A DNA stretch of 50,435 nt from Candidatus Melainabacteria bacterium (GTDB lineage Bacteria; Cyanobacteriota; Vampirovibrionia; Obscuribacterales; Obscuribacteraceae), in the NCBI GenBank assembly GCA_027451745.1, contig DAIDIP010000004.1, forward strand, positions 89,275 through 139,709. The letters run 5' to 3'. Position 1 is the stretch's first letter; each line of letters begins with the position of its first letter. This document shows, in pieces, positions 17,000 to 39,777 of the stretch. The translations under genes and the position numbers were made by a program. The notes under the pieces were generated by a model. The model did no database searches and was not told where the DNA came from. It saw only the letters and a list, made by a program, of their open reading frames with translations.

Positions 17000-17290
17000 T
17001 AATGATGCTTGCGCTAACGGTGCTAGCGGTTAACAGATAATTTAATGAGCTAAAGATCTGCTCACAAAGGTCGCTCTACTGCAACTACTCAAAAGAGCAA
17101 TTTATAGATGTGGATACCAAGAGAGCATTTGGTCAACTTTAGTGTGAATAGCAGCTCTTGCCGGGGTCCCGTAGGACTTTGGCGGCGAAAACGCCAACGC
17201 CGGCTCTAAACGGTTGTGTAATTCGTCAAGAAGTGAAGGCGACTTAAATCACCGGATTATCCGGAAGCTTGAGTCGCTTTCATTTTTTTA
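17000..17290 (+). ncRNA. Candidate structured non-coding RNA (class unknown)
   Basis: Between tRNA-Arg and the crp-like gene there is no plus-strand reading frame, yet a strong plus-strand terminator sits at 17236-17288. Upstream of it, GCCGG (17160-17164) pairs with CCGGC (17200-17204), enclosing two hairpins: GTCC/GGAC with loop CGTA (17166-17177) and TTGGCG/CGCCAA (17179-17184/17092 to 17097 offset +100, that is 17192-17197). This looks like a three-way junction. The 5' end is unknown. 6S RNA is one possibility from location style, but I could not match its central bubble, and tmRNA, RNase P and SRP RNA signatures are absent. Confidence 0.45.
17236..17288 (+). terminator. Rho-independent terminator of the candidate ncRNA
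   Basis: The 13-bp stem 17236-17248/17269-17281 (two G-U pairs) is capped by the inner hairpin CCGGA/TCCGG (17252-17256/17260-17264) and followed directly by ATTTTTTTA. The T-run is on the plus strand only, so it terminates rightward transcription, for which no gene exists upstream. Confidence 0.75.
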
Positions 17291-17369
17291 TTTACTTTTT
17301 ATAGCACCAAATATAGTGCAAAGCATTTTTTGCTCTGTTTGGTGACGCTATTTTATACAACAATTAACC

Positions 17370-20516: not shown

Positions 20517-22025
20517 TTGTGCCTAGGTCTTTCTGCTCCTGGCATAGGTCTTTGGTTCCTGGCATGGTTTTGCTTAACGCCATTGCTATTGATCATCAGT
20601 CTTTCAACAATAAACAAAGAGCATCTTTATAAATCATGGCTCAAAGTTTTTAACTATGGTTTTTTATTTGGGCTTGCATACAATTGTGTTTATTTGCATT
20701 GGTATTTAAATCTTGCTCCACTTGATTGGCTAGGGTTTAATGCCTGGCAGGGACAATTACTTGCCATAGCAGCTTGGCTTATCGTCGCGAGTCATCAAGC
20801 TTTGCTTGTTGCTATCTTCTCTGTGCTATGTAAGCTTTTGCTCAATGTCTTATCAAAAACAAATGCTTCAAACATTTTGCAAATCTTTTTGGTGCCCCTG
20901 CTTTGGGTGATAGTCATCAATAAATTAGGCAACGCCCGTGACCTTACCGGCGTCCCTTGGAGCATGCTTGAATACACACAATACAAACAATTGCCTCTTA
21001 TTCAAATAGCAGATATTGTCGGCAGTATTGGCATCGGCTTTTTGATTGTGATGATCAATGCCTTTATTGCTCAGGTTGTTGAAGCGATGTTAATAGGGCG
21101 CAATGAAAGCAAACCAGCGTTAGATAAAAGTCTTATAAGCGCTCACGCTCCCGCACTTTCACTATGTATGTCATTTCTTGTCGCTGCGAATTTTTATGGG
21201 CATTATGTTTTAGCTTCACCTCAAACGGAGCCAAAAGAAACTGTTTCTATAGTGCAGCCAAACATCAATATAGAAATGGAGAAATCCAAAAGACAATGTA
21301 CCCTCTCGGAACTTATAACCCATCAACTACAATTGGCTAGCAAATGTCCACCAGGATTATGTGTATGGACAGAAAGTTCTTTGCCGACTCGCATAAGCGA
21401 AGATAAAGACTTACAAAGGCTGCTCATCAGCTTTGCTCAGTCAAAGAAGCTTTCGCTTATTGTAGGCACAATAGACTCAGATAACGCTGATTATTACAAT
21501 GCTGCTTGGGCGACATCTTCTTCTGGACGATCAAGCAAACAGATGTACCACAAGCGTTATTTAGTGCCCTTTGGCGAATATACGCCACAATTTGTCCGTA
21601 ATTGGCCAGATTGGATTTTGTGCCTTACCAATACACCAGCTGGCACAGGATATTCTTCCGGTAAAGAACCTGCGCTACTTAATATCAATGAAAAACTAAT
21701 AGCCCCTTTGATTTGTTTTGAAGTAATATCCCCTGAATTGGCAGCAGCAAGTGTGCGTGCTGGCGGGCAATTATTGGTAAACATAAATGATTTGGCTTGG
21801 TTTCATGAATCAATTATTGGTGAACAGATGATAGCTTGTGCTGTATTTAGAGCAATTGAAAATCGACGCTATTTTATTTTTGCTGCCAATACAGGGCCTT
21901 CGGCGGTAATATCTTCAACCGGAAAAATAAATGCCTCTATTGGCCAAGATAAAACTACTGATTTAATCGATAAATTTAATTATTTATCTAAATTGACTCT
22001 TTTTACGCGCTATTTTATGTTGTAA
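20517..22025 (+). CDS. lnt: Apolipoprotein N-acyltransferase
   Basis: 502 residues from TTG 20517. Six to seven membrane segments form the N-terminal half, followed by a nitrilase-like domain. The catalytic triad is visible: Glu286 in VWTESS, Lys346 in YHKRYLVPFGEY, Cys400 in PLICFEV. It adds the third acyl chain to lipoproteins at the periplasmic face, consistent with a diderm envelope. The start is doubtful: the conserved first helix continues upstream of 20517, and the best ribosome binding site (AGGGGA, 20463-20468) is placed for an ATA codon at 20475, giving 14 more residues. No ATG or GTG lies in frame there. Confidence 0.93.
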   Translation: MCLGLSAPGIGLWFLAWFCLTPLLLIISLSTINKEHLYKSWLKVFNYGFLFGLAYNCVYLHWYLNLAPLDWLGFNAWQGQLLAIAAWLIVASHQALLVAIFSVLCKLLLNVLSKTNASNILQIFLVPLLWVIVINKLGNARDLTGVPWSMLEYTQYKQLPLIQIADIVGSIGIGFLIVMINAFIAQVVEAMLIGRNESKPALDKSLISAHAPALSLCMSFLVAANFYGHYVLASPQTEPKETVSIVQPNINIEMEKSKRQCTLSELITHQLQLASKCPPGLCVWTESSLPTRISEDKDLQRLLISFAQSKKLSLIVGTIDSDNADYYNAAWATSSSGRSSKQMYHKRYLVPFGEYTPQFVRNWPDWILCLTNTPAGTGYSSGKEPALLNINEKLIAPLICFEVISPELAAASVRAGGQLLVNINDLAWFHESIIGEQMIACAVFRAIENRRYFIFAANTGPSAVISSTGKINASIGQDKTTDLIDKFNYLSKLTLFTRYFML

Positions 22026-24769: not shown

Positions 24770-24845
24770 AGGCTGACACTTATCTTATACTATTATGCCT
24801 CTTTGAAAATAAATGCGAAAAGAGAAAAAATGAGATAACTCACAG

Positions 24846-24865
24846 GTTAGCGCAGCTGCGCTAAC
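24846..24865. repeat. 20-bp perfect intergenic palindrome
   Basis: GTTAGCGCAGCTGCGCTAAC is a perfect palindrome built from two GCGCTAA arms. It is the longest member of the intergenic GCGCTA set and lies near the left border of the first GC-rich block. Confidence 0.7.
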
Positions 24866-25108
24866 TCTCCACCTGGACTTTAATCTTATTACTAACCTTA
24901 TAAATCTCACATTGGTAACATTGAAAGCATGAACCGTACTACAAGCCCATCTTGAGGTCTTAAGGTGCTCTTGACTTTCTGGTGTTTAAAATGACAGTGT
25001 GAAAGTAAGTTTTTACCCATTCCAACCCGGGAACGTCTGCCACCCAGTCTATTTATTATCACTAATATTCCCTTCCTTCGATTTGAGCCAAGTGCCCGGG
25101 AGTTCGCA

Positions 25109-25222
25109 ATGAGTGCGCCTACGATTTCGGTTTTCGGCATGGGCGGTTCAATCATGGGCACTGATGCTGGGCGCACGACGCCCGATGCCCGATGCGCCCA
25201 AGCTCCGCCGGCAACACCATAA
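25109..25222 (+). CDS. Small leader ORF in GC-rich block A
   Basis: 37 codons, ATG 25109 to TAA 25222, with GGGAG at 25097-25101 six to seven bases upstream. The product (MSAPTISVFGMGGSIMG at the start) has no known domain. It stands in the long leader of the M3-like peptidase gene and could be a small protein or a regulatory leader peptide. Confidence 0.35.
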   Translation: MSAPTISVFGMGGSIMGTDAGRTTPDARCAQAPPATP

Positions 25223-25282
25223 TCGAGACTGGACAATATCTCGTTGCGGCAGGATTGCACGAGACCGCGCGAGTAATCATCC

Positions 25283-25331
25283 TGGTCTCTTCCCCCTATC
25301 TCTTGGGCGGAGAGAAAGCCCAAGAAGACCA
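25283..25331 (+). promoter_or_regulatory. Two-part leader hairpin, block A
   Basis: TTGGGC (25303-25308)/GCCCAA (25318-25323) forms an inner hairpin, and TGGTCT (25283-25288)/AGACCA (25326-25331) closes around it. Part of the structured leader of the peptidase gene. Confidence 0.45.
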
Positions 25332-25356
25332 ATAGAGTCGCCATCCATCGTGCGTA

Positions 25357-25387
25357 AGCCGACCATGCAAACAGCGCATGGTCGGCT
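25357..25387 (+). promoter_or_regulatory. Strong leader hairpin, block A
   Basis: AGCCGACCATGC (25357-25368) pairs perfectly with GCATGGTCGGCT (25376-25387) around a seven-base loop. It ends 27 bases before the ribosome binding site of the peptidase gene and is not followed by a T-run, so it is more likely an mRNA 5' structure than a terminator. Confidence 0.55.
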
Positions 25388-25428
25388 ATACGCTTACCCT
25401 CAGAAAAAATTCAGCGAGGAACCCTGCC

Positions 25429-27105
25429 ATGCCTTCACGTCAAGATTGTCCAGACCAAAGCAAATGGGACGCCGGTATCGAGAGGGTCTACCCTCTTGAG
25501 GAGCGTCGGCGCGATCGAGAACGCGTTCCCCAGTACGCCAATTTGTTGCGGCGATACACGCTTGCTGCGCTTCCCCACGAAGCAGTGGAAGCGGATCTTG
25601 CCCGGGTCATTGAGGTCTTGCATTGCGGGCGCAAGGAGATGAGCGATCTCATCGATTACGTGGTTCTTTTGACCAGTTGCAACACAACCGAACCGATGCT
25701 CCTCGACCTTGAAGCACGTACCCTGCGACTCCTCGATGACTGGATGGACGCTGAACAGTGCATCAGGGCTTTTCTTACCAGCGTCGACCTGTCCATGCGC
25801 AGTCGTTTACTGGGCAGCGAGGGCACATTTGTGCCGCTCACCAATGTCAAGGGTATCAACCCAATAGCGCCTCACGTCACTCATGTGGGACAGTTGCAAA
25901 CCCAAATCGCCGCCAGGGTTGGCGAACTGATTCGTCCTCTGTCAGGACAGCACCGCGACTATCAGGCGTCACAGCTACTGATCGGCGGCTATCAGCATCA
26001 CCAGGGCTACTTCGTAGACACTTTTCGCGCAATCGCAACTCAGGAGGTGGCGCGAGCAAAGCTAGCAGGACTGACCTATCTCCAGTACCTCACACAACAC
26101 GATGGCGTGCCAAACGACTTGCCAGTCCGTTGGAACAAGGTCGTGCGTCAGCATCTGCCAATCTTCAGGCGCTTCCTCGCATGGCTGATGCGGAAGCAGC
26201 AATACCAGTCACTGCCTATCACTGCTTTGGTCACAGAGCCAATGCACCATGGCGTTAGTGCCTCTTTCCTTCACACATTCGAGGAGGTTCTCAAAGCAAG
26301 CGCTCCCCTTGGTCCTGACTACCAGGCGGCCATTCAAGAAATGCGCGACCAACACCGACTCGATTACTGCCCGTACGGAGTGCGACAACAAGGCTCTTAC
26401 GTTTGCTTCCTGCGTGGCAAACCATTCGCCTTCTTCAACCTCATTGGGTCCCATTACGGAAAGGCCGCGGTGGCGCATGAGCTTGCTCATGCAGCACACC
26501 TCATTCTTTCAGATCGGGGCAGACCCTTCGAGGAATTCGGCGTTTTAGCCGCGGAGGTCGTGGCGCTGGTTGGCGAGCAGCTCTACTTTGAACGCAGCCT
26601 CAGGACTGCGGGGGAGGGAGAAGCAAAAACGAACCTCTTGATGGATGAAATGTGGACCACCATCATCCGCGTTTTCATGCCGTCGATGTGGTCGGAGTTC
26701 GAGCTTTCGGCCTACGAACATCTCGAATCCGGTGGCAGTCTCAAGTCGGAATGGCTCTGCAACAGGCTTGCAACTCTTTTGCAAGAGTATTGCGGCCCCA
26801 TTCCGATTGCTAACTTTGTCAACGTCGGAGTTCTTTGGCCAATTCACTTCATCCTTTTCTTCCAACCCCAGCGACACTGGCTGTACGGTCCAGCCCACGC
26901 CCTGGGCATCGATTTGTACGAGACTCTGACTGGGGGCGACGATTCGGCAGTCACACAGTATATCGAATTCTTGCGTCGCTCGGACAATTTCACAAGTAGC
27001 GAGGGACTGCTCTGCGCTGGCGTCGATCTCAATTCTGATCAGCACCTCCATGCTGCCTTTCGGCGCATGGAGGTGCTCATGAACGAGATCGAGCAGTCCA
27101 GTTGA
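25429..27105 (+). CDS. M3-like metallopeptidase (oligoendopeptidase F-related)
   Basis: 558 residues from ATG 25429, with CGAGGA eight bases upstream. A zinc site VAHELAHAAH (HExxH) is followed about 25 residues later by LAAEVVAL, the Glu-containing third-ligand motif arranged as in the M3/PepF family. The rest is helical, as in those peptidases, but sequence similarity elsewhere looks low. No signal peptide. The gene is strongly GC-richer than its neighbours (for example 38 of 60 bases at 26521-26580 versus 20 of 60 at 22321-22380 in the SRPBCC gene), which points to acquisition. Substrates unknown. Confidence 0.65.
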   Translation: MPSRQDCPDQSKWDAGIERVYPLEERRRDRERVPQYANLLRRYTLAALPHEAVEADLARVIEVLHCGRKEMSDLIDYVVLLTSCNTTEPMLLDLEARTLRLLDDWMDAEQCIRAFLTSVDLSMRSRLLGSEGTFVPLTNVKGINPIAPHVTHVGQLQTQIAARVGELIRPLSGQHRDYQASQLLIGGYQHHQGYFVDTFRAIATQEVARAKLAGLTYLQYLTQHDGVPNDLPVRWNKVVRQHLPIFRRFLAWLMRKQQYQSLPITALVTEPMHHGVSASFLHTFEEVLKASAPLGPDYQAAIQEMRDQHRLDYCPYGVRQQGSYVCFLRGKPFAFFNLIGSHYGKAAVAHELAHAAHLILSDRGRPFEEFGVLAAEVVALVGEQLYFERSLRTAGEGEAKTNLLMDEMWTTIIRVFMPSMWSEFELSAYEHLESGGSLKSEWLCNRLATLLQEYCGPIPIANFVNVGVLWPIHFILFFQPQRHWLYGPAHALGIDLYETLTGGDDSAVTQYIEFLRRSDNFTSSEGLLCAGVDLNSDQHLHAAFRRMEVLMNEIEQSS

Positions 27106-27129
27106 AGTCCCATCATGGAGTCCACGCAA

Positions 27130-27174
27130 GTGAAAGGTCCAAGGATGACACCAGTCGTCCTTGGACCTTTCCAC
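27130..27174 (+). terminator. Terminal inverted repeat of GC-rich block A
   Basis: The arm 27130-27145 pairs with 27158-27174 (16 bp with a single bulged base) around a 12-base loop and is followed by TTTTTA. The T-run also supplies the TAA stop (27178-27180) of the convergent SMR-like gene, so the block ends exactly against host coding sequence. Confidence 0.9.
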
Positions 27175-35227: not shown

Positions 35228-35747
35228 TGTTTTTGCTATTGCCGATTACTAATATCAAACGAAAAATTCTGATTTTATGTGCCGCTTAGGGCTTAGTAGA
35301 ATCTTCCCATAGGTTACCACTATTTAATAAATTATGCCGCTGCGCTAGCTGCGCTAGGTTCAATCTTTGATATTTAATTTGTTTACTGTAAGAAGTAAAT
35401 CGAAAATTGTTTTTTGTTCTTTCTTTAAAAATAGACTTGTAGACTATTTCAAGCAAAGGTAAATGCATGTCGTAAGAGTAGCTATTAACGACGCTTAACT
35501 TCATGCCCATTCATGCACACTTGCCTTTATATTCGCAATAATGACAAAGTCAATTATTCCCGCAGATTCATCCTGGTTTTTCTCAACAATATTTCGTCTT
35601 TCACGCCTGACAATACTTCGTTAATCTGCTGCTGAGCAGATCAACGAAGACGCCGTACTCACTTAGACTTGCGACCGATAACCGATCGCAAGTCTTAATC
35701 GCCACCGCACGCCTCAGGAGCGCTTTATAGCGCATGGAGGAACGATG
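35228..35747 (+). promoter_or_regulatory. Border of GC-rich block B with three leader hairpins
   Basis: The left part is AT-rich host-like DNA without a gene. From about 35600 there are three hairpins: 35616-35630/35635-35649 (14 pairs, one mismatch, GCTG loop), AGACTTGCGA 35665-35674/TCGCAAGTCT 35686-35695, and GCGCT 35720-35724/AGCGC 35729-35733. GGAGG at 35736-35740 follows immediately. None has a T-run, so they probably structure the 5' end of the block B mRNA. Confidence 0.55.
35340..35357. repeat. Intergenic GCGCTAG direct repeat
   Basis: CTGCGCTAG occurs twice head to tail (35340-35348 and 35349-35357). Same sequence family as the palindromes at 2264, 20423, 24846 and 50335. Confidence 0.5.
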
Positions 35748-35972
35748 ATGGAGGTTTTTTTTGCTGAAGCAGCTCTGGAACAATCGCCTAATTCGGTTTG
35801 GGCGATCATTATTGTGATTGGCTCGGCCATTGTAATCGGCTGCCATACGTTGTTAAAAGAGGCAAGTCGGGCAGCTTCAGAAGTGGACGGACGATGTTCA
35901 TCTTGCAATGCCCGACTTAACCGACGCTACCCTGCTCACTGCCCAAAATGTGGGGCACCGAATTTTTCCTGA
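35748..35972 (+). CDS. Small membrane protein with C-terminal zinc ribbon (block B)
   Basis: 74 residues from ATG 35748 (GGAGG seven bases upstream; ATG 35745 is too close). One membrane helix (about residues 17-36) is followed by a basic linker and a C-x2-C-N-A-R-L then C-P-K-C-G zinc-ribbon pair. Not recognised as a named family. First gene of the block B operon; codon use is GC-rich compared with the host genes on either side. Confidence 0.6.
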   Translation: MEVFFAEAALEQSPNSVWAIIIVIGSAIVIGCHTLLKEASRAASEVDGRCSSCNARLNRRYPAHCPKCGAPNFS

Positions 35973-36004
35973 ACCTCACAACACAACTCACACAGGAGAT
36001 CGTG

Positions 36005-36238
36005 ATGGAGCAACTACAACTCCTTGCCTCCAAGCCAGATGGCATTAGTTTGATGCTCATCCTCGGCTCGGGCATGCTCATCTTGGGCTATGCCCTGTAC
36101 CTGGGAGCGAAGCACCGACGGTTGCATTACTGCGTTGGCAAGCCATGCAGGACACAACCGCCTATTCGACTTATCCTCGGCCGCAACAAAGTCTGTCTCG
36201 GATGTCCTCACAAACAGGCGGAAAGTGCTGAAGCCTAG
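36005..36238 (+). CDS. Small one-helix membrane protein with Cys pairs (block B)
   Basis: 77 residues from ATG 36005, with AGGAGA upstream. One hydrophobic helix (about residues 14-31) and then a basic region with C-V-G-K-P-C and C-L-G-C, which could hold a metal ion. No family recognised. It follows the previous small gene by 32 bp. Confidence 0.55.
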   Translation: MEQLQLLASKPDGISLMLILGSGMLILGYALYLGAKHRRLHYCVGKPCRTQPPIRLILGRNKVCLGCPHKQAESAEA

Positions 36239-36307
36239 TGAGTCCTAAGCAAACAAGGAGATCACAAAGTTCCAGCACTTATACACAACTTGAGAGAAGG
36301 AGACAAT

Positions 36308-36418
36308 ATGTCTATTCTTGCCAGCATCATGCTAGGACTGCCGCCTTGGCTAATTATAGCCAACATCTCGGTTGCCTGCATTTGGCTAGCTGGCGAATGG
36401 TATTTCCAGCACGACTGA
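36308..36418 (+). CDS. 36-residue membrane peptide (block B)
   Basis: ATG 36308 to TGA 36418, with GAAGGAG five bases upstream. Most of the peptide is one hydrophobic helix (from MSILASIM to about residue 28) ending in EWYFQHD. Small single-helix peptides of this kind are often subunits or regulators of membrane complexes, but no function can be inferred. Confidence 0.5.
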   Translation: MSILASIMLGLPPWLIIANISVACIWLAGEWYFQHD

Positions 36419-36460
36419 TACTACTGATGGCAGCCGTGTTATTGACACGGCCAAGACTGC

Positions 36461-36541
36461 ATGAAAGGCTACCTCCATTTTCAATGGAAAGCCTACCGCG
36501 ACGGACCAGAATGTCCTGTCTGCGGCAAACAAAAAGACTGA
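36461..36541 (+). CDS. 26-residue Cys-pair microprotein (block B)
   Basis: ATG 36461 to TGA 36541. The peptide ends in GPECPVCGKQKD, a half zinc ribbon like that in the first gene of the block. It has only a weak ribosome binding site, so it may be translated by coupling or may not be real. The hairpin at 36542-36576 begins right after its stop. Confidence 0.35.
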   Translation: MKGYLHFQWKAYRDGPECPVCGKQKD

Positions 36542-36576
36542 GTCACCCCTCGGACACAAGACGCCCGAGGGGTGAC
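36542..36576 (+). terminator. 12-bp perfect hairpin inside block B
   Basis: GTCACCCCTCGG (36542-36553) pairs perfectly with CCGAGGGGTGAC (36565-36576) around an 11-base loop. No T-run follows, so it is an mRNA-protecting or processing structure, or a partial terminator, separating the microprotein genes from the last gene. Confidence 0.55.
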
Positions 36577-36624
36577 GATGATAATACCAAATTCTCTTCC
36601 CTCGAATTGCATCGGAGACGGGTC

Positions 36625-37062
36625 ATGATTCTCAGCCATGGGGTCATCGTCGGCTTCATTTACCCCCCAGGTTCTCTGCTTGCTCTTGGTGCTGGGCTCG
36701 CCAAATGCGGCTACATGCGCAAGCAGGATCTTTCTGACGGCTGGCGACTGGTTGGACGGGTTGACAATTCCACCCCAGAGCTGGTCGCTTTTGGGAATGT
36801 TACAACTGATCGCTTTGACTTTACCGCCGCCGTTATCGGCGATCCCACGACAGTCTTTCCCACCCCGCAACTGCATCGCAGCATGTGCGAGCGCATTATC
36901 GACGTTTTCGAGCGTCCTTTGGCCGCCGCGGCCGGACTTGAACGAGGACGAACGGAACATCTCCCGACCGAGGACGAGGACAATGACCCATTCGCTTTGA
37001 TTTTCCCGCGCTACAAGATTCTTGAAGTCGTCTTTAGTTCACGGACTCTTGTGTCCGTATAA
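36625..37062 (+). CDS. Unknown 145-residue protein (block B)
   Basis: ATG 36625, GGAG about eight bases upstream. It starts with a hydrophobic, Gly-rich stretch (MILSHGVIVGFIYPPGSLLAL) broken here as a possible single helix, then mixed alpha/beta sequence (DGWRLVGRV, ELVAFGNVTTDRFDF) and an acidic region before a hydrophobic end. No known motif. Codon use is the GC-rich type of the block. A hairpin CGGAC/GTCCG overlaps its stop region. Confidence 0.5.
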   Translation: MILSHGVIVGFIYPPGSLLALGAGLAKCGYMRKQDLSDGWRLVGRVDNSTPELVAFGNVTTDRFDFTAAVIGDPTTVFPTPQLHRSMCERIIDVFERPLAAAAGLERGRTEHLPTEDEDNDPFALIFPRYKILEVVFSSRTLVSV

Positions 37063-37115
37063 AGCGCATACGCCGACATGCCGAACCTATACGCCTATTT
37101 TTGGCATGAGCTGGG

Positions 37116-37145
37116 GACGGACGGTCTTTGATAAGACCGTCCGTC
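37116..37145. terminator. Terminal inverted repeat of GC-rich block B
   Basis: GACGGACGGTCTT (37116-37128) pairs perfectly with AAGACCGTCCGTC (37133-37145), with loop TGAT. The right arm overlaps the recG stop codon (complement of 37144-37146), so the block directly contacts, and partly encodes, the end of recG. Confidence 0.85.
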
Positions 37146-39777
37146 AGCCAGAGTGCAAAATTTCTGTTTTGAGATTGTTATTGTGCTTTTCTATTAGTTT
37201 ATGTAATTTTGGATGTTTTTCTAATTTCGGATCCTCTTTTATGATTTCAATTGCTGCCTGCCTGGCATCAGACAGAATTTTTGTATCCAATGTCAGATCA
37301 GTCAAGATTAAGTCTGGCAGCCCACTTTGTCTGAATCCCAAAAATTCTCCTGGTCCACGAATAGCCAAATCTTTTTCTGCTACCACAAAACCATCATTTG
37401 TTTGTGTGAGTATATTTAAACGATCGCGTGTAGATTGTGTTTTACTTTCAGTGACAAGAAAACAATGTGATTGGTCGCTGCCTCTCCCCACGCGTCCACG
37501 CAATTGATGTAATTGAGCTAAGCCAAATCTATCGGCGTTCTCAATTACCATAACTGAGGCATTAGGCACATCCACACCTACTTCAATAACAGTGGTAGAA
37601 ACCAAAATATCGTATTTGTGCGCCCGAAAATCATTCATCACTTCTTCTTTTTCTTCTGATTTTAATTTGCCATGCATGAGTCCAATACACAAATCTGGAA
37701 AAACTTTTTCTTTTAACTTTGCATATTCTATTGTTGCCGCCCGAGCAGATAATGTTTCTGATTCTTCAATAAGAGGAAAAACAATATAAACTTGTCTGCC
37801 GGCTTGTACTTGCTCTCTAATAAAGTTATAGAGCATTTTCTTTTCACCCGGTCCCATTAATTTAGTCAAAATAGGCTTTCTTCCGGGTGGTAATTCATCT
37901 ATTTCTGATAAGTCTAAATCGCCATGGATAGTTAAAGCCAAGGTTCTTGGAATTGGTGTGGCAGTCATAGTCAACAGCTCTGGAGAAACGCTCTTTGCTT
38001 TTAAGCGTGCTCTTTGTTTTACGCCGAATCTATGTTGTTCATCAATAATTATCAATCCAAGTTTTTTAAATTCAACATCGTCTTCTAATAAGGCATGAGT
38101 GCCAACAATTAAATTGACTATTCCTGAACCTATAGCGGACCGTATTTCTTTACGCTCGCGCGCGCCATGTTTGCCTAAAACTAAAGCAGCCACAAGTCCA
38201 AGTGGAGCAATAAATTTCTGACATTGATTATGATGTTGTTCAGCCAAAATTTCAGTGGGCGCCATCATTGCTACTTGGTAGCCATTATCAATAGCAATTA
38301 AAGCAGACAATAAAGCCACAATAGTTTTACCCGAACCAACATCACCCTGTATTAAGCGATGCATAGGCTTGCTGGAAGCAAGATCGCGAGCAATTTCTTT
38401 GCACACCCGTTCTTGGGCAGCAGTTAATTTGAATGGCAGACTTTGTCTTAGTTTTTCTACTAAAGGAGTGTTTTGCACTTCTAAAACAAGAGATTTTTCT
38501 TCTTGCTCAAAATTATGTCTTCTTTTGGCTAAGCTTAATTGCAAAGCAAATAATTCATCAAAAACAAGTCTTTCTCGGGCTTTAGTAAAATCTTCCATTG
38601 TTTCTGGGAAATGTATTTTTTCAAGCGCTTTTCTTTCTTCAATGAGATCATATTTTTCTTTTATCGCGATAGGAACAACATCTTCTATAAGGCTGCCATA
38701 TTTTTCTAAGGCATTATGAATTATCAAACGCAAATGCCTTAAACTTATGCCTTCTGTTAATGGATAAACAGGTACCAGCCTGCCAGCATTTAAAGATTTC
38801 AATTTCTCCAATTCTTCGCGTGAATAAGCACTTGCCTCATCCTCGCTGATATAACCAAGCAGTTCCAGTTCGGCATTCTTCAAAGTATAGCGATGATAAT
38901 GTTTATCGCGCTCAACAATTCCAGATGCCATAACCTGACAGCCTTTTGGATATTGGTTTTTATATCTATCAAGCAAAAACTTATTTGATTTGCCACCAAT
39001 AAATCTGGTCACAGAAATATTTCCTGTACCATCTGAAATAATAATAGTTAAAATTGAAATTTTTGTTTTAGGTGATTGAAAAGCGCTTACAGACTTAATC
39101 ACACCAATAACAGTTACTTCTTGTCCGGGCTTGAGCGAGCCTATTTTTACTTTGTCCGAAAAATCAATATGCCTGCGAGGATAATGGCGCAATAAATCTT
39201 CTACAGTATTTATACCTATATTGCCCAGCATGCTTTTGTAGCGCGGTCCAACACCTTTAACAAATTGAATATCTAGTTCGTTTGTATGTTTGCCTTCTGA
39301 ATTTGGTGGTAGCTTTTTGTCTTCATTAGTTTTGCTAAGGACTATTTTATTGTCTGTGCTTAAACTGCCTTTAACAGGCACATCTACAGACCGTTGTCCT
39401 ATTTTGTCGGCAGCATTTATAGCGGCAGTTTGAGTGTTTTCTTCCTTCGATATAGAAGTTGGCAATTTAATTTGATCCAGAAGTTGTTCCACCCGAAGCA
39501 ATATTGATATGCGACTGGCAACATCAGTAGTTGGATAAGTGCGGAACAAACCGCGAATAGTTACCCAGATTGCTTCATGGGGATAAGTTCTCGATAATTC
39601 ACTTGCAGTTTTGCGCATGAAGCCAGAAAATGTGCTGCGCTTGCCTTGAAAATCGGCATAACGAGCCTTTCTTTCCACAAGAATAGCTTTCTTCATTTGA
39701 GAAGAAAGTTTTTCAGCATCAGGTTTAGCTTTAGTTGTTGTGTAATTAGGCAAGGTTCTATCTTCGACAATAGCCAC
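37144..39777 (-). CDS. recG: ATP-dependent DNA helicase RecG
   Basis: 877 residues, longer than typical RecG (about 690) because of a 170-residue N-terminal extension that is charged and partly disordered, as is common in Cyanobacteria-related lineages. The wedge domain begins near DLLRHYPRRHIDFS (about residue 190). Helicase motifs are intact: GDVGSGKT (Walker A), DEQHRFGVKQR (motif II, DExH-type), TATPIPRT, and QLRGRVGRG. It remodels stalled replication forks and branched DNA. The last residues (HSG) come from sequence overlapping the block B terminal hairpin, so the C terminus may have been rewritten. Confidence 0.96.
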   Translation of the reverse strand: MAIVEDRTLPNYTTTKAKPDAEKLSSQMKKAILVERKARYADFQGKRSTFSGFMRKTASELSRTYPHEAIWVTIRGLFRTYPTTDVASRISILLRVEQLLDQIKLPTSISKEENTQTAAINAADKIGQRSVDVPVKGSLSTDNKIVLSKTNEDKKLPPNSEGKHTNELDIQFVKGVGPRYKSMLGNIGINTVEDLLRHYPRRHIDFSDKVKIGSLKPGQEVTVIGVIKSVSAFQSPKTKISILTIIISDGTGNISVTRFIGGKSNKFLLDRYKNQYPKGCQVMASGIVERDKHYHRYTLKNAELELLGYISEDEASAYSREELEKLKSLNAGRLVPVYPLTEGISLRHLRLIIHNALEKYGSLIEDVVPIAIKEKYDLIEERKALEKIHFPETMEDFTKARERLVFDELFALQLSLAKRRHNFEQEEKSLVLEVQNTPLVEKLRQSLPFKLTAAQERVCKEIARDLASSKPMHRLIQGDVGSGKTIVALLSALIAIDNGYQVAMMAPTEILAEQHHNQCQKFIAPLGLVAALVLGKHGARERKEIRSAIGSGIVNLIVGTHALLEDDVEFKKLGLIIIDEQHRFGVKQRARLKAKSVSPELLTMTATPIPRTLALTIHGDLDLSEIDELPPGRKPILTKLMGPGEKKMLYNFIREQVQAGRQVYIVFPLIEESETLSARAATIEYAKLKEKVFPDLCIGLMHGKLKSEEKEEVMNDFRAHKYDILVSTTVIEVGVDVPNASVMVIENADRFGLAQLHQLRGRVGRGSDQSHCFLVTESKTQSTRDRLNILTQTNDGFVVAEKDLAIRGPGEFLGFRQSGLPDLILTDLTLDTKILSDARQAAIEIIKEDPKLEKHPKLHKLIEKHNNNLKTEILHSG

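Follow-up and report, generated by a model that had tools for sequence, protein, structure and literature searches.

PmrA-controlled effector genes of Legionella are an example of a scattered effector regulon. Phage morons are autonomous genes of unlike composition that lie between unrelated genes, each with its own promoter-like region and terminator. Integron gene cassettes carry small payloads of diverse origin, mostly orphans, tied to a common cis element, and genomic islets are small, lineage-specific insertions of unlike GC content between conserved genes. The units described here, of which the locus termed Block B is one, resemble each of the last three in the respects just named, their own promoter and terminator being putative.

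Block B lies in the window, the whole stretch of 50,435 nucleotides that was analysed, in contig C4 of a fragmented 3.0-Mb MAG of Candidatus Obscuribacterales with 38% GC (G000). The MglA-type GTPase gene of G000, a little-known relative of the cyanobacteria that does not photosynthesise, has its best matches in Candidatus Obscuribacterales / Melainabacteria MAGs. Two-state segmentation separates four GC-rich segments in the window. Among them is the islet body of Block B (35626–37156, unstranded), with 52.7% GC in a 38% GC neighbourhood. Its neighbours are a gene with a YcdB domain and recG; no phage-like neighbours were seen. The preliminary description took the locus for an operon-like series of short genes with their own hairpins, and this is supported. 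It missed what defines Block B, namely that it belongs to a group of GC-rich islets which have an upstream element in common, and its overall interpretation is partly supported. Block B is probably an autonomous transcription unit, extending from about 35.34 to 37.15 kb, within a genus-specific class of such islets.

Motif discovery on the DNA upstream of the islets gave two elements. Element E, 44 bp long, combines a dyad with a TTTAAT box at fixed spacing, and box M2 is a promoter-like sequence of 42 bp (TTGnnTT-N13-AATGnCA...). E is located 200–350 bp upstream of the GC edge of the islets and 300–450 bp upstream of the start codons, and M2 follows E by 70–155 bp. In Block B, E (35336–35379, +; PWM score 29.7 bits) forms the 5' end of the unit as a tandem TGCGCTAGC-TGCGCTAGG variant of the dyad with the TTTAAT box. 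It is also the top genome match of the covariance model R1, at 38.8 bits, the same sequence being in the training set of the model. M2 (35519–35560, +; 24.1 bits) lies 139 bp after E.

Because both motifs were discovered on the same islets, figures for their sensitivity are circular, and the weight belongs to the specificity, control, reversed-sequence and cross-species tests. The de novo motif likelihood is 394 for E, compared with 139–150 for equal-sized control sets of ordinary upstream regions, and 256 for M2, compared with 136–144. Among 144 ordinary host upstream regions, none reaches at least 12 bits for E and one does for M2. Of 30 islets, 28 have the sequence TAGCGC/GCGCTA in their 5' spacer, compared with 15% of 118 control gaps (intergenic, on islet-free contigs); its density is 3.75 per kb in the former and 0.42 per kb in the latter. 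Within the window, the only places where E goes with a high-scoring M2 are the four islets (A, B, C and D) and one further islet, apparently decaying, near 2.2 kb. Matrices built from G000 alone, applied to 435 kb of the sibling genome G010, returned six E/M2 composites, five of them at islets, and the reversed control returned none. Loci of other Obscuribacterales, 281 kb in all, had no composite; the single match there (L100) is G000 itself. The covariance model of E matches 28 sites in G000 and 17 in G010. Outside the genus it has no match in 22 of 23 genomes; the remaining genome has one borderline match (E-value 0.31), followed by DNA of 32% GC. Of the 11 evaluable matches in DNA not used for training, eight precede a stretch of at least 52% GC, and a few matches of E have no GC-rich gene.

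RNA-type covariation of the E dyad is weak (57.7% of cells are paired, and 15 of 500 shuffles attain the covariation score), and the element is therefore read as a DNA dyad. Helical phasing of the E–M2 spacing gives p values of about 0.02–0.11 depending on the period tried, uncorrected, and phasing is not claimed here. M2 reads as neither a standard sigma-70 nor a sigma-54 promoter: its consensus differs from TTGACA-17-TATAAT, and a sigma-70 consensus scan of Block B found five sites, compared with 2.4 expected, none coinciding with M2.

About 30 GC-rich islets were counted in the 2.06 Mb (69%) of G000 that was segmented, a number that depends on the GC threshold. They are concentrated on contigs C4, C10, C21, C27, C28 and C29, with none on C2, C3, C5, C6, C8, C11–C13 and others. 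Apparent islands elsewhere, such as contig C1, at 48% GC, and repeat-rich stretches of C7 and C9, were left out because they have neither the hairpins nor the element. A search for a link between this clustering and the terminus yielded no convincing dif site. The islets are intergenic and occur in every orientation relative to the host genes on either side. Shine-Dalgarno (SD) sequences precede 55–66% of islet ORFs, compared with 23–26% of host ORFs, and hairpins of at least 12 bp on C4 number 10 in 8.5 kb of islets and 2 in the 131 kb outside. Most islets end in a long terminal hairpin followed by a T/CT-rich run; the 3' hairpins are unrelated in sequence, and only the T/CT-rich tail is common to them. 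On contig C3, the ends of a repeated IS element (about 8.5–10.2 kb; L239) coincide with many contig ends, which accounts for part of the assembly breaks. A match of E at C3:8701 lies next to a repeated IS element, at its left end, and this adjacency is probably fortuitous.

The genus sample comprises two species, G000 and its sibling G010 (record JABDBL010000012). In other Obscuribacterales loci with both rpmB and hsp33, these genes are mostly separated by 35–250 bp without an islet; the exceptions are two loci with another GTPase gene between them and one with a larger gap. In G000 and G010 the same site holds GC-rich islets of different content in the same orientation, and homology between the two (islet C of the window and its G010 counterpart) is not significant. 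An islet also lies beside recG in both species. Block B runs toward recG, and the G010 islet starts beside recG and runs away from it; given their opposite orientation, the two are independent units.

These sites raise the question whether the islets are the cargo of an unrecognised mobile element, with E as a recombination end and payloads inserted beside it by an enzyme coded elsewhere. We consider this unlikely. It would account for the conservation of E and for its constant orientation with respect to payloads that are not homologous, and it fits the existence of relatives with islet-free sites, the fact that the two recG islets face opposite ways and the clustering in part of the genome. 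However, the islets have no conserved 3' end beyond the T/CT-rich tail, E stands 200–350 bp outside the GC-rich body, and none of the 45 islet proteins is an integrase or transposase. The covariation of the E dyad is too low for an attC-like folded site. Block B has no long flanking direct repeat (minimum 10 nt; very short duplications may exist). On this ground, and because no right end is shared among islets, IS elements, MITEs and transposons were rejected as candidates.

The 45 islet proteins have no similarity to one another. A minority match known domains, including deaminases (among them cytidine deaminase), CsrA, RsgA, glycosyltransferase, EamA and LRR; further islets contain PP2C-like and trypsin-like domains, and several proteins have apparent signal peptides. 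Islet A (24843–27171, +), which has E, M2 and a strong terminator, encodes a divergent M3/PepF-like peptidase (HELAH) of 558–575 residues. This protein is about 25% identical to proteins of 27 other genomes of the family, and it also has a plasmid PepF match. One islet gene (L218:7260–8294, −) encodes an apparent signal peptide and, by eye, an endonuclease/exonuclease/phosphatase-like order of motifs, with no Pfam match. A secreted-protein family across islets, plausible by eye, was not statistically significant. A small Gly/Ser/Ala-rich ORF with two cysteines (MLRIDRRFVPSYGGGGGSGACSSG...) at L013:1016–1186 (G000 C4, about 21016–21186), within islet C4:19606–21246, looks like a modified-peptide precursor.

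Two stretches of the window extend the range of forms. At 17005–17310 (+), E is followed by a unit of ~250 nt without a notable ORF. Its hairpins are GC-rich, its end resembles a terminator (GGCGACTTAAA...TTGAGTCGCTTTCATTTTTTT), and it may be an islet in small-RNA form. At about 1517–2276 (−), a stretch of 47% GC comes after E and M2; it contains a TPR-like ORF, has no clear terminator and looks like a decaying islet below the GC threshold.

The mixture of payloads bears on a second explanation, in which the islets would be a scattered effector-type regulon whose products, lineage-specific and in part eukaryote-like, would be expressed together to interact with a host or prey. This explanation is unlikely. 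The payloads with LRR, PP2C-like, trypsin-like and deaminase domains and the apparent signal peptides speak for it. Against it, other payloads look metabolic or like housekeeping genes (cytidine deaminase, RsgA, EamA, CsrA, glycosyltransferase), and Block B itself has no domain of the effector type.

The five ORFs of Block B (74, 77, 36, 26 and 145 codons) are present where the preliminary description placed them. The 74-aa ORF (35748–35972, +) has a GGAGG SD and encodes one TM segment and a zinc-ribbon-like CxxC-N11-CxxC motif (CSSC/CPKC). Its Pfam zinc-ribbon matches score below the family cut-offs (DZR_2, 17.2 compared with a gathering threshold of 27 bits). The 77-aa ORF (36005–36238, +) has an AGGAG SD, one TM segment and four cysteines (Cx4C/CLGC). 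The 36-aa hydrophobic ORF (36308–36418, +) is a coding candidate with an AAGGAG SD, and the 26-aa ORF (36461–36541, +), which contains CPVC and has no SD, is doubtful. The 145-aa orphan ORF (36625–37062, +) is preceded by a weaker GGAG. Thus, of the four ribosome binding sites initially called clear, three hold, before the 74-, 77- and 36-codon ORFs. The cysteine pairs are found as claimed in three of the first four ORFs (74, 77 and 26). Hydropathy places a membrane helix in two of the three proteins said to have one, the 74- and 77-mers; the segment in the 36-mer was read from the sequence.

A codon model trained on islets strongly favours coding for the 145-aa ORF, whose score was reached by 0 of 4000 random sequences, and gives good support to the 77-aa ORF (p 0.002). 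The scores of the 36- and 74-aa ORFs are inconclusive, not being separable from chance, and the weak score of the 26-aa ORF is beaten by another frame. Two of the five ORFs (77 and 145 aa) are thus well supported as coding by these predictions, and the other three rest on SD and motif logic.

Four hairpins accompany the ORFs. Two long leader hairpins are located at 35616–35649 (+; 15-bp arms, one mismatch) and 35665–35695 (+; 13-bp arms, one mismatch); the third leader hairpin of the original account is a short GCGC/GCGC stem beside the first start codon. The 12-bp perfect hairpin before the last gene and the 13-bp perfect hairpin at the end of the block were both recovered. The former, between the 26- and 145-codon ORFs (36542–36576, +), has a terminator score on the minus strand only. 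The latter (37116–37145, +) abuts the recG stop codon and lacks the T-run that follows most islet terminators. Hairpins of this strength do not occur in the shuffled block sequence.

Searches of genome contigs, IMG/VR, phages, plasmids, Pfam and PHROGs gave no significant homology for the Block B proteins. Specifically, the three longest (74, 77 and 145 aa) have no relatives in 49 genomes of the same family, and none was found for the 77-aa protein. For the 145-aa protein, close peptide patterns gave no relatives in 84,980 genomes, nor were there any in IMG/VR or phages, and AlphaFold returned no usable structure for it (pLDDT 34). Apart from the zinc-ribbon scores, the proteins have no family-level match in Pfam or PHROGs. 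Conservation among homologues is inapplicable as a test of the small frames, since the three proteins searched gave no homologues. Block B most likely yields a pair of TM/Cys-rich microproteins and the 145-aa orphan; that they act at the membrane, perhaps binding metal, would be a guess.

The preliminary description read Block B as a stand-alone small membrane or metal-binding complex. The TM segments and cysteine motifs of the 74- and 77-aa ORFs and the adjacency of the genes are in keeping with this reading. It is nevertheless rather unlikely, as many units with unrelated contents have the same control region, the zinc-ribbon scores fall under the cut-off and doubt attaches to two of the five ORFs.

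A derivation from prophage, as morons or remnants, is very unlikely. The units are self-contained and of foreign composition, and the islet-A peptidase matches phrog_27765, a phage family of unknown function (E-value 1.8e-16). But phage genes are absent around the islets, whose flanks are housekeeping genes; proteins P0001, P0003 and P0004 had no viral-contig or phage match in the searches run; and the exact core pattern of E occurs in none of the viral contigs. An assembly or binning artefact, suggested by the abrupt GC shift within a MAG, is highly improbable, as two separate MAGs have the same architecture and common cis elements with consistent intergenic placement.

We suggest that the islets are likely to be accessory transcription units of recent acquisition, governed by one dedicated control that is specific to the genus. 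The order within an islet would be the dyad E, box M2 ~70–155 bp on, a leader, one or a few GC-rich genes preceded by SD sequences and, in most cases, a strong intrinsic terminator. A dedicated regulator would bind E, and M2 would serve as core promoter; the islets would therefore form one regulon. Such a regulon may insulate and co-express recently acquired lineage-specific genes, and the TM/Cys microproteins of Block B may be a small membrane-associated accessory set inside it. Counting against this reading, E is far upstream for a simple operator, M2 is non-canonical, the last hairpin of Block B has no T-run and a few matches of E stand without a GC-rich gene. More tentatively, the islets could be the product of a genus-confined gene-acquisition system, a possibility that we regard with some doubt. 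Foreign GC-rich genes would be installed intergenically behind E and M2, insulated by terminators, in a growing orphan regulon, with E possibly serving also as an insertion landmark.

Newly gained genes are generally silent or poorly regulated on arrival. Here, one genus has dozens of unrelated genes, apparently imported, that carry a common control module and are strongly insulated, and they permit a direct test of how a bacterium puts foreign orphan genes under common control. E also provides a one-line search for such units, including the short, apparently non-coding one that composition alone misses.

The comparison with described systems can now be completed. Integron cassettes differ from the islets, which form no array, have no attC-type conserved 3' site and carry E far upstream without the covariation of a folded site. 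In scattered effector regulons such as the PmrA-controlled genes of Legionella (cf. PMC12239595), many dispersed, laterally acquired genes have one regulatory element. The islets also have a common regulatory element at dispersed genes, at the level of sequence; unlike in Legionella, it is the long E–M2 composite. Phage morons are found in prophages, whereas Block B and the other islets lie outside them and all units have one genus-specific, two-part upstream element. Ordinary genomic islets likewise lack an upstream control element common to unrelated contents, which is what E and M2 give to the islets described here.
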